The position numbers were made by a program, and so were the translations under genes. Shown here piece after piece: positions 1 through 12,122 of a stretch of DNA of 13,318 nt. How positions within the stretch are numbered: the stretch's first letter is position 1; every line of letters starts with the position of its first letter. The notes under the pieces are model-generated. The model saw nothing but the letters and a program-made list of their open reading frames with translations, was not told the origin of the DNA and did no database searches. Source of the stretch: Erysipelothrix rhusiopathiae (GTDB lineage: Bacteria; Bacillota_I; Bacilli_A; Erysipelotrichales; Erysipelotrichaceae); NCBI GenBank assembly GCA_902797585.1, contig CADBTK010000043.1, forward strand, positions 1 through 13,318, written 5' to 3'.

Positions 1-389
1 TATCCACGAGGTCGTTTTGGTGGACGACAACCATTGTGTGGAATTGGGGTAACATCATTAATCATTGTAATGTCTAATCCTGCTACCTGTAATGCTCGTA
101 CCGCTGCCTCTCGTCCTGGCCCCGGTCCTTTAATTTCTACCGATACTGTTTTCATCCCATGTTCTGCAGCTGCTTTCCCTGCTGCTTCCCCAGCTAATTG
201 CGCTGCATATGGGGTACTCTTTCTTGATCCTTTGAATCCTAACGCTCCTGCACTACTCCATGCTACTGCGTTCCCATTCTCGTCTGTGATCGTTACAATT
301 GTATTGTTAAATGTAGAGTGGATATGAGCACAGCCTCGGGCAATATTCTTTTTGACTCTTCTTTTTCTTGTCTTTGTTTGTTTCGCCAT
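1..389 (-). CDS. rpsK: 30S ribosomal protein S11 (stop codon cut by window edge)
   Basis: S11 is a platform protein of the small subunit that binds the 690-loop region of 16S rRNA near the E site and mRNA exit. The reading frame gives 129 residues, the usual S11 length, and then the two bases TA at the window edge, so only the last base of the stop codon is probably missing. Family hallmarks are visible: [16 protein letters not shown] near residue 20, the GPGPGREAA motif around residues 85-93, and a C-terminal [12 protein letters not shown]. The ATG at 389 follows AAGGAGG by 8 nt. That Shine-Dalgarno sequence includes the rpsM stop codon (TAAGGAGG), so translation is probably coupled to S13. 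In relatives rpoA and rplQ follow, beyond this window. Identification is firm. Confidence 0.97.
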
Positions 390-402
390 GTCTCAACCCT
401 CC

Positions 403-768
403 TTACTTCTTCTTGTTCGCAACTGTTTTCGCTTTCCCTTTGCGAGTTCTTGCGTTTGTCTTTGTTCTTTGTCCGCGTACTGGCAATCCTCGTCTATGAC
501 GGATTCCTCGGTAACATCCAATTTCCATCAATCGTTTGATGTTTAATTGTACTTCTCTTCGTAAATCCCCTTCGACTTTGATCTCATCAATTGCCTTACG
601 GATTTTATTCATTTGTTCGTCATCTAAGTCTTTTACTCGGATGTCTTCACTAATTCCTGTTTGTTCCAACACTTGTTTCGCTGTGCTTTTCCCAATTCCA
701 TAGATGTATGTCAATGAAATTACTACACGCTTATCGTTTGGAATATCTACTCCTGCAATACGTGCCAT
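403..768 (-). CDS. rpsM: 30S ribosomal protein S13
   Basis: S13 sits in the head of the small subunit, forms intersubunit bridges with the large subunit (helix 38 of 23S rRNA and protein L5), and touches P-site tRNA through its basic tail. The product is 121 residues, the normal size. It starts with [11 protein letters not shown], carries the helical segment [16 protein letters not shown], and has the [20 protein letters not shown] signature near residues 88-107, followed by a Lys-rich tail ending ANKKK. The ATG at 768 is preceded by AGGAGG five bases upstream. The rpmJ stop lies immediately before that site (TAAGTAGGAGG). The S13-S11 order is the normal start of the alpha operon. No anomaly seen. 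Confidence 0.98.
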
Positions 769-898: not shown

Positions 899-979
899 AG
901 TTCTAATCCTTTCCGCCACGTATTCTCCCGTTAAAATGCGAATGGTTCTCATTCGGATTTTACCAGTAACGTGGTCATA
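899..979 (-). pseudogene. infA: infA remnant: middle of translation initiation factor IF-1
   Basis: Between adk and rpmJ, exactly where infA sits in most Bacillota, 27 codons encode [19 protein letters not shown] plus flanking residues. This matches the core of IF-1 (as I recall it, HVSGKIRM and YIRILTGDKV in typical sequences), the OB-fold segment around residues 35-53 of the usual 72. The first ~33 residues are absent: a TAA stop (980-982) precedes the fragment and a hairpin lies before that. The last ~20 residues (normally ending VELSPYDLTRGRI-like) are also gone, because the frame runs straight into the rpmJ ATG. There is no plausible start or Shine-Dalgarno sequence for a functional IF-1. 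I read it as a decayed gene whose functional copy must be elsewhere if IF-1 is kept. Confidence 0.85.
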
Positions 980-995
980 TTAATGAACAAGCAAA

Positions 996-1016
996 GCGCT
1001 TATTTAAAATAAGCGC
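996..1016 (-). terminator. Perfect hairpin after adk; weak terminator or processing site
   Basis: Two 10-nt arms (GCGCTTATTT and AAATAAGCGC) are exact inverted repeats separated by one base, so about 8 bp can pair with a 5-nt loop. It starts 3 nt after the adk stop codon. On the minus strand it is followed by TTTGCTTGTT, which is U-rich but interrupted, so termination would be partial at best. It could separate adk from rpmJ-rpsM-rpsK expression, act as an mRNA processing or stability element, or mark the breakpoint of the infA/map deletion. Confidence 0.55.
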
Positions 1017-1018
1017 AT

Positions 1019-1666
1019 TTACTTGTTGAGTACAGTTTTAATTTCTTCCCAAATTTCTTCCATTGGTTTAGAAGCATCAATGTGGGATACCATACCTTTT
1101 TCTTCATAATAAGCGATAACTGGTTCAGTGTTTTTCGCATATTCTGATAGACGAGTCTTTAATGACTCTTCGTTGTCATCTTTACGTTGAGTTAATTCTG
1201 CACCACATACATCACATACACCTTCTGTTTTTGGAGGTTTAGAGTATATGTTGAAGATTTCTCCACATTCTTTACAAGTACGACGACCTGTAATACGACG
1301 AGTTAACTCATCAGTAGCAACATCCATTGCTAAGATGACATCAACGGCCAAATCGGTTCCCTTCGTTAATTCTTCGAACGCTTTGGCTTGATCCAAAGTC
1401 CTAGGATATCCATCCAACAAATATCCATTTTTCTTGTCAGTTAGTTGGCTCAAATAATCTTTTACCATATTATTGGTAATTTCATCAGGGACTAACAACC
1501 CCTTTTCTGTGTAGGCTTTTGCTTGTAAACCTAACTCCGTCTCATTTTTGATGTTTGAGCGGAAGATGTCTCCGGTAGAGATGTGATTCAAATTGAATTC
1601 ATCTTTAATACGGCTTGAGAAAGTTCCTTTCCCAGATCCCGGAGCACCCATAATGAAGATGTTCAT
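1019..1666 (-). CDS. adk: Adenylate kinase, zinc-LID type
   Basis: Adenylate kinase interconverts ATP + AMP and 2 ADP in the cytoplasm, balancing adenine nucleotides. The 215-residue product is the normal long-LID form. It has the P-loop GAPGSGKGT at 7-15, the AMP-binding STGDIFR at 30-36, DGYPRT at 85-90, and a LID domain with four cysteines (C131, C134, C151, C154) in two CxxC pairs. These would bind structural zinc, as in Gram-positive adenylate kinases. The ATG at 1666 follows AAGGAG by 6 nt. It starts 17 nt after the secY stop, the standard spc-operon position. Downstream, map and an intact infA are missing and a hairpin follows directly. Identification is firm. Confidence 0.98.
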   Translation of the reverse strand: MNIFIMGAPGSGKGTFSSRIKDEFNLNHISTGDIFRSNIKNETELGLQAKAYTEKGLLVPDEITNNMVKDYLSQLTDKKNGYLLDGYPRTLDQAKAFEELTKGTDLAVDVILAMDVATDELTRRITGRRTCKECGEIFNIYSKPPKTEGVCDVCGAELTQRKDDNEESLKTRLSEYAKNTEPVIAYYEEKGMVSHIDASKPMEEIWEEIKTVLNK

Positions 1667-12015: not shown

Positions 12016-12122
12016 TGTAATCTCCTTTCGTTTATTCTAGATAAACATGCTCCATGCGAATTACCTGACTCCCTAGACAACGGCTCTCAGTGGGTCAGCA
12101 ACCTCGCACTTCTACGCAGTGC
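12016..12122 (-). promoter_or_regulatory. Structured 5' leader of the S10 operon (candidate regulatory RNA)
   Basis: About 105 nt lie between the predicted transcription start (near 12122-12125) and rpsJ. Four inverted repeats are visible in transcript order: GCACT/AGTGC (12106-12122, 7-nt loop), CTGACCC/GGGAGTCAG with one bulged A (12065-12098), CATG/CATG (12046-12056), and GTTTAT/ATAAAC (12030-12046). The last ends 3 nt before the Shine-Dalgarno sequence and shares one base with the third, so these two may compete. No terminator-like T-run is seen, so control would more likely be at translation. Ribosomal protein leaders are common before such operons, but I cannot assign this one to a known family. 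Confidence 0.5.

Follow-up and report, generated by a model that had tools for sequence, protein, structure and literature searches.

An infA-derived RNA element and probable cis-regulator of rpmJ-rpsM-rpsK in Erysipelotrichaceae

Between adk and rpmJ, on the minus strand of the window (the whole 13,318-nucleotide stretch of DNA that was analyzed), lies a sequence that is descended from infA and forms a conserved, covarying RNA structure, the constraint on which goes with rpmJ-rpsM-rpsK. The sequence is likely to act as a cis-regulatory RNA for the rpmJ-rpsM-rpsK (L36-S13-S11) operon, one that was embedded in infA and has outlived it. Autoregulation by a product of the operon is a tentative candidate for the mechanism. 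More broadly, we lean toward the view that the element represents a so far undescribed class of alpha-operon regulatory RNA, which has persisted inside infA under double constraint throughout the history of the phylum and has twice turned into a free-standing leader after gene loss; in the window's group it stands before both alpha operons, which harbor near-identical L36-S13-S11 genes and two different RNA polymerase alpha subunits, and could coordinate them.

The locus and its infA ancestry

The minus-strand order in the window is secY-adk-[stretch]-rpmJ-rpsM-rpsK. The upstream neighbor adk (1019..1666, minus strand, the query of our scan of relatives) has its last base at 1019, and rpmJ (L36; 782..898, minus strand; PF00444, 73.4 bits; TIGR01022), the first gene downstream, starts at 898, with the IF-1-like stretch in between and in the rpmJ frame. 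Behind rpmJ follow the open reading frames of rpsM (S13; 403..768, minus strand) and rpsK (S11; 3..389, minus strand, truncated by the contig end), both identified by eye. From 979 to 899 on the minus strand, the translation of the stretch corresponds to the central part of IF-1. Two profiles align with it: NCBIfam TIGR00008 (infA) over positions 33-51 of 69 (22.2 bits, E 9.9e-5, 19 aligned residues) and Pfam PF01176 over positions 30-47 of 64 (16.6 bits, E 0.006). Both scores are far under the curated cut-offs (61.15 and 30.2, respectively), as for a fragment, and the stretch holds no full-length frame above cut-off that would make it an infA gene. Its descent from infA is nevertheless clear: intact infA occupies the same position, directly before rpmJ, in related genomes, and an intermediate state, a broken infA at this site, is seen in one of them (G325, described below). 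The first-pass annotation had placed a middle-of-IF-1 stretch at the ancestral infA site, a claim that the two profile matches and the infA-rpmJ order in relatives bear out; the stop and terminator-like hairpin (996..1016, minus strand) on the adk side and the direct run into rpmJ are likewise as it described them.

That annotation had also called the stretch a decayed fossil, with recent loss as one explanation, and proposed a comparison of the adk-rpmJ interval in close relatives for intact, partial and lost states. An Adk scan left 80 loci, and the 16 nearest (L036-L051, from Holdemanella, Faecalicoccus, Faecalitalea, Floccifex, Catenisphaera, Absicoccus, Ileibacterium and records without a genus name) were read closely at this site. 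The infA frame is absent after adk in all 16. Fifteen of them contain a stretch of the type CACGTTTCTGTTAAAATCCGCATG-loop-CATACGCATTTTAGCAGG...ACGTG with rpmJ shortly behind (in L038 the record becomes N ahead of rpmJ), while L049 has neither the stretch nor rpmJ-rpsM-rpsK after adk and continues to rpoA. Recent decay does not fit this picture: the same loss is found at 15 further loci of at least seven genera, base-paired RNA is what remains, and among the 16 leaders, window counted, both IF-1 halves share one frame only in the window and Floccifex, the halves lying in different frames or being interrupted by stops in the other 14.

Structure, covariation and double use of infA codons

The element (912..978; all its coordinates are on the minus strand) folds as an outer stem that encloses a long inner hairpin, the latter containing a C.C mismatch (z -3.38, window 909-980). 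The outer stem joins CCACGT (969..974) to ACGTGG (916..921) and the inner hairpin joins CTGGTAAAATCCGAATG (950..966) to CATTCGCATTTTAACGG (928..944), as judged from pairing and the fold of the window; C938 opposite C956 forms the conserved mismatch, and the loop (945..949) is variable in length and sequence among relatives. A Shine-Dalgarno-like sequence of rpmJ, GGAAAGG (908..914), read from the sequence, is located one base past the outer stem. Of the roles that the first-pass annotation had offered for the fragment, one as part of the mRNA fits a base-paired RNA conserved in its own right, and there is no sign of one as part of L36, given that rpmJ is provided with a separate start and Shine-Dalgarno-like sequence.

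The 15 loci with a leader, together with the window, make up a set of 16 leaders, from which L049 is absent for lack of one. All 15 Erysipelotrichaceae loci keep the hairpin inside the outer stem, with the frame broken in all but one. RNAalifold, run on a sequence-only alignment of the 16 leaders, returns the same structure, with two-sided changes in 7 of 21 pairs. In the 15 distinct rows, paired cells reach 89.7% compared with 84.7 in shuffles (0 of 500 reach the observed value), pairs with double changes number 10 compared with 5.3 (1 of 500), and the covariation score is 0.207 compared with 0.117 (0 of 500) and at most 0.087 with the partner slid, kinship being left in by both the shuffle and slid controls and the structure, chosen after viewing the sequences, having an advantage in the latter. 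Further pair types show no excess in these rows (19 compared with 16.7; 63 of 500 shuffles as high). With four added sequences of two further genera (18 distinct rows of 20), the same measures are 94.2% compared with 86.5 for paired cells (0 of 500), 11 compared with 5.2 for double-change pairs (0 of 500), and 0.287 compared with 0.144 for covariation (0 of 500; at most 0.091 slid), one Faecalicoccus form being misaligned in the outer stem of this set, which works against covariation. One outer-stem pair is C-G in 9 rows and U-A in 8. The element therefore has the conserved structure with compensatory changes that marks a ribosomal-protein leader. A covariance model of the 16 leaders scores the window, itself part of the training set, at 79.1 bits. 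The Ileibacterium leader has diverged, and its C.C mismatch is closed to a pair.

Rfam families give no match to the element, either in the window itself or among 10 other loci. The model of Alpha_RBS (RF00140) scores 28.4 bits against a gathering threshold of 38, and does so at 736-836 on the minus strand, outside the element; it is also under the cut-off in 9 of the 10 other loci with a listed match. This weak match sits at the rpmJ-rpsM junction and may just reflect the rpsM start. Elsewhere in the window, upstream of the S10 gene (12028-12122, minus strand), an S10-Clostridia ribosomal-protein leader scores 35.3 bits against a cut-off of 35.1. By one simple score, the best ungapped match of the element to E. 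coli 16S and 23S rRNA, the only rRNA compared, is not above shuffles; sequence mimicry of rRNA is absent from many known ribosomal-protein leaders. At the end of adk, 11 of the 15 leaders show a near-consensus promoter, TTGAA[A/T]-17-TATAAT (10 or 11 of 12 matches), a type not found in the window. The TATAAT of this promoter lies, in most relatives (11 of 15; for example L046), within the loop region of the terminator-like hairpin behind adk, which is perhaps one sequence both ending and starting transcripts.

Intact infA genes of the order carry the same element in their codons, as GCTCACGT...CTGGTAAAATCCGnATG...CATnCGCATTTTACCnGG...ACGTGGGC. Among 50 different Erysipelotrichales infA genes, codons 31, 34, 35, 36, 42, 43, 44, 59 and 60 are each a single codon wherever the residue is present. 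Over codons 30-47, the mean modal-codon fraction of these genes is 0.872, compared with an expectation of 0.545 based on codon use in other parts of the gene, and the rest of infA gives 0.628 compared with 0.575 expected; identical genes were counted once, and kinship does not enter this synonymous test. In 69 genes from other families of the class the fraction over codons 30-47 is 0.789 compared with 0.530, and 28 Clostridia-type genes show no synonymous effect there (0.565 compared with 0.561). Four Adk-scan loci that already showed the element (L085, L090, L101 and L113, recorded as Erysipelotrichaceae, Turicibacter, Bacillales and Bacilli, respectively) were grouped with the class and not with the Clostridia-type genes, and infA went unrecognized in 6 of 80 class loci (L177, L184, L190, L199, L206 and L211). 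The full 8-pair outer stem is found in 47 of the 50 Erysipelotrichales genes, 19 of the 69 others of the class and none of the 28 Clostridia-type genes, and the C.C mismatch in 50 of 50 and 55 of 69 of the former two sets. At one pair, both partners of which are third codon bases, the 50 genes have U-A in 26, U-G in 22 and C-G in 2, and it is never unpaired. Segments of infA fold into the element in L120 (z -3.54) and, only moderately better than shuffles, in L010 (z -1.95; 6 of 200 equally good). One exception, L148 (G075), has infA-rpmJ and lacks the element. A gene-conversion signal between two operons is an unlikely source of the pattern, since genomes with a single infA-rpmJ copy also have the element.

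Natural losses and the second alpha operon

Of the 16 nearest loci, 15 lie in genomes that could be searched (L048 is excluded). An intact infA exists elsewhere in 10 of these 15, one of the two possibilities named in the first-pass annotation, and in all 10 rpmJ lies behind it. The other possibility, a lineage managing without IF-1, finds no sign here, and loss of IF-1 from the lineage is not supported, given these ten genes. The window's own genome shows no PF01176 match, which says nothing about infA because the assembly is 68.6% complete in 254 contigs and rpoA is likewise not found in it. Where readable, the second operon runs infA-rpmJ-rpsM-rpsK-rpoA-rplQ. Between the two operons of OPF54 (L126/L127), rpmJ-rpsM-rpsK are 99.6% identical over 917 bases, rplQ is 80.5% identical, and rpoA is too different to align as DNA; the corresponding rpmJ-rpsM-rpsK segments are identical at 900 of 900 bases in M10-2 and 916 of 916 in F. 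pleomorphus. Near-identical rpmJ-rpsM-rpsK beside a diverged rpoA amounts to concerted evolution, sharply bounded by the start of rpmJ and the end of rpsK (L126/L127, L128/L047 and L129/L037). A repeat of this kind should interrupt contigs: 9 of the 16 loci have no more than 620 bases of contig left beyond adk, and the contig of the window stops in rpsK. Breakage of assemblies at the near-identical operon repeat can explain why infA is missing from drafts. Across the 15 genomes, the 16-leader covariance model finds both the leader and the infA copy in nine, the leader only in five and the infA copy only in one (G072), weaker opposite-strand matches at the same places being palindrome shadows. 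The five genomes without infA (G060, G062, G064, G066 and G067) are also without a second element copy, as if the region were unassembled. The relocated infA genes (L116-L125) have a conserved upstream leader of their own, in which a small hairpin (ATGGC...GCC...TATCAT) precedes the Shine-Dalgarno sequence. One genome listed as 97% complete (G078) has no infA match, and another (G006) has two infA genes.

The rpoA genes are doubled as well. PF01000 has two matches in 9 of the 15 genomes of the window's group, one in three and none in three, which are drafts, compared with one in each of three other family members. The N-terminal domain of RpoA2 is divergent, and its C-terminal domain closely resembles that of RpoA1; among the RpoA sequences recovered from 15 of 24 loci (L240-L263), 3 RpoA2 and 9 RpoA1 form separate supported groups in a midpoint-rooted tree. 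In two drafts (G061:C3 and G074:C7) the adk-leader contig continues into a low-scoring RpoA2-like gene, in contrast to G070, G071 and G062, where RpoA1 lies behind the leader; this is either misassembly across the identical 900-base repeat or real exchange between operons.

Natural losses separate the genes with which the element could be associated. In four genomes of genus g4 (G003, G298, G299 and G301), rpmJ-rpsM-rpsK are gone from the second operon and rpoA lies directly behind infA. The IF-1 motif is kept in all four, with an M-to-L change in two of them, and the element codons match at only 4, 5, 6 and 4 of 14 positions, respectively, compared with 13 or 14 of 14 in ten relatives with rpmJ behind infA. 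Comparing those ten with one another gives differences at element codons in 25 of 630 cases (4.0%), as opposed to 914 of 2277 (40.1%) for the remaining codons, and none of 20000 random 14-codon sets is as low. Within the g4 four the corresponding values are 49 of 84 (58.3%) and 123 of 314 (39.2%), and between the four and the ten they are 369 of 560 (65.9%) and 1079 of 1894 (57.0%). The infA segment of G003 has lost the element fold (z 0.05) and that of G299 folds differently (z -2.28). At the adk-rpmJ site of the two g4 genomes read there (G003 and G298) the element is kept, the G298 leader having A.G instead of the C.C mismatch and a new upper stem. The mirror case is L049 (G072), which has neither rpmJ-rpsM-rpsK nor the element behind adk and keeps both behind infA. 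These losses indicate that selection on the element follows the ribosomal-protein genes, not infA, and the association is independent of the other neighbors; few independent events carry this argument, because the g4 four are probably a single event and the mirror case is one genome. A class-wide comparison of rpmJ presence with element codons was uninformative in that, of 22 loci seemingly without rpmJ, all eight that were read have an L36 gene there, which the search pattern had overlooked. The remaining 14 comprise one genuine case (L295), one locus masked by N (L124) and 12 outside the reading (L216-L218, L220, L221, L223, L226-L228 and L230-L232), seven of these 12 in already-read genomes.

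Genus g31 lost infA from this site separately from the window's group, since other g31 species (L035, L300 and L302) keep an ordinary infA-rpmJ with the element there. The g31 site itself was viewed in two genomes: G372 has adk-[element]-rpmJ with no infA frame, and G325 has a broken infA with all paired arms standing, each with a divergent infA on another contig. In 14 g31 genomes the best infA match is only E 1e-18 to 1e-21, and at least 10 of these have a model match at E 1e-4. Divergent infA genes also occupy other sites in some g31 species (L306-L310, L313 and L314), and seemingly the divergent form is able to replace the alpha-operon infA. Family-wide, the covariance model matches at least 212 of 272 genomes at E 1e-4 (with stricter filters) and PF01176 matches 233 of 272.

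Proposed mechanism, alternatives and known systems

In most members of the phylum examined, the element is written in the infA coding sequence just upstream of rpmJ, and the codons concerned would serve twice. We infer that the block infA-rpmJ-rpsM-rpsK-rpoA-rplQ was duplicated in the ancestor of the window's group and that, in the copy at the ancestral site, the infA frame was then lost and the RNA retained as a 5' leader of rpmJ, with IF-1 supplied by the other copy; a continuing need for the RNA on the part of the ribosomal-protein genes would explain why it was kept. In the leader form, transcripts would start at the end of adk, as the promoters in 11 of 15 leaders suggest. An operon product, or another ribosome-assembly protein, may bind the hairpin with the C.C mismatch and block the rpmJ ribosome-binding site: because the outer stem ends (at 916) one base before the Shine-Dalgarno-like sequence (914-908), a protein that holds the element closed could block rpmJ and, by coupling, would also block rpsM and rpsK. 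In the infA form, translation of infA would unfold the element. S13, S11, L36 and L17 are candidate ligands, for which the comparison with E. coli rRNA lent no support.

The strongest rival to cis-regulation is an RNA processing or stability site, for example a target of RNase III or RNase Y, which would free the rpmJ-rpsM-rpsK message with no ligand-dependent control. A long near-perfect hairpin directly before rpmJ, kept both in infA and as a leader, would suit such a site, but a general cleavage stem would probably not require so invariant a sequence or the C.C mismatch (50 of 50 Erysipelotrichales genes and 55 of 69 others), and, with a near-consensus promoter close upstream in 11 of 15 leaders, the message to be cut may be scant. 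We regard this reading as unlikely. Decidedly less probable is a promoter inside infA for the downstream genes. One arm does hold TGGTAAAAT, which is extended -10-like, its TAAAAT is invariant in 20 leaders, and a pattern scan of L046 rates the arm promoter-like with its TG; however, the TG is lost in several leaders that keep the pairing, the far arm is just as invariant, the two-sided partner changes are not explained, and two patterns of such quality are common by chance (shuffle mean 1.0).

Two further readings turn on infA itself. That the RNA serves IF-1 autoregulation would agree with its location inside infA in most genomes of the class examined; it is very improbable given that the element is kept where the infA frame is gone, and it is contradicted in one genus, four genomes of which kept infA and had the element erased along with the loss of rpmJ-rpsM-rpsK. 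A functionless fossil, recognizable through recent loss, is scarcely credible. The window fragment is still in frame and IF-1-like, as such a fossil would be; however, the loss is common to 15 further loci of at least seven genera, the remnant is exactly the paired element with the rest of infA gone, and double changes preserve its pairs. A cis-regulatory RNA of rpmJ-rpsM-rpsK remains our preferred reading.

Among the matches listed, no description of an RNA in infA or of two rpoA genes in Erysipelotrichaceae was found in the open-licence literature, and the text available of a leader survey (PMC7247131) makes no mention of infA, rpmJ, L36 or Erysipelotrichaceae. The element and its history were not found in that open-licence literature, and the kind of regulation is already known. 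It is the natural losses in the two directions, rather than conservation alone, that point to part of an essential gene acting also as a regulator of its neighbors and to the ability of such a regulator to outlive its host gene. The element is a candidate for L36-S13-S11 control in the phylum and a warning that apparent gene fossils may be regulatory RNAs. The operon repeat, in turn, offers a reason for infA missing from drafts of the group, and the work also revealed that the alpha operon is doubled and that there is a second RNA polymerase alpha subunit.

The element shares with ribosomal-protein leaders in general a conserved, covarying RNA structure and an association with ribosomal-protein genes. 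The alpha operon ribosome binding site (RF00140), whose ligand is S4, likewise regulates an operon beginning with rpsM, but its model matches, below its cut-off, the rpmJ-rpsM junction and not the element. A comparable arrangement is infC-rpmI-rplT of E. coli, where part of the L20 site lies in infC; unlike the element, this system involves IF-3 and other proteins, and the element here lies wholly within infA, is absent from Rfam and outlived its gene twice. As far as the portion available of PMC10931766 describes it, infC-rpmI-rplT is alike in placing an initiation-factor gene before ribosomal-protein genes under L20, with a promoter for the L35-L20 genes in the infC coding region and repression by L20 via two mRNA sites. 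The same portion describes the S8 operator of the spc operon, located at the start of rplE and not in a 5' leader, which is also a regulatory RNA structure within a ribosomal-protein operon; it is because of the infC promoter and this operator that the kind of regulation counts as known (PMC10931766). The S8 operator, however, resembles the S8 site on rRNA, and no such resemblance was found for the element in E. coli rRNA. For the doubled operon, the sources as available describe a segmental duplication of the alpha operon in Psychromonas ingrahamii (PMC8046335) and two non-identical RpoA proteins in Francisella (PMC3294249). These are unrelated bacteria, however, and in the window's group the ribosomal-protein part is near-identical, rpoA has diverged, and the two copies have different leaders.
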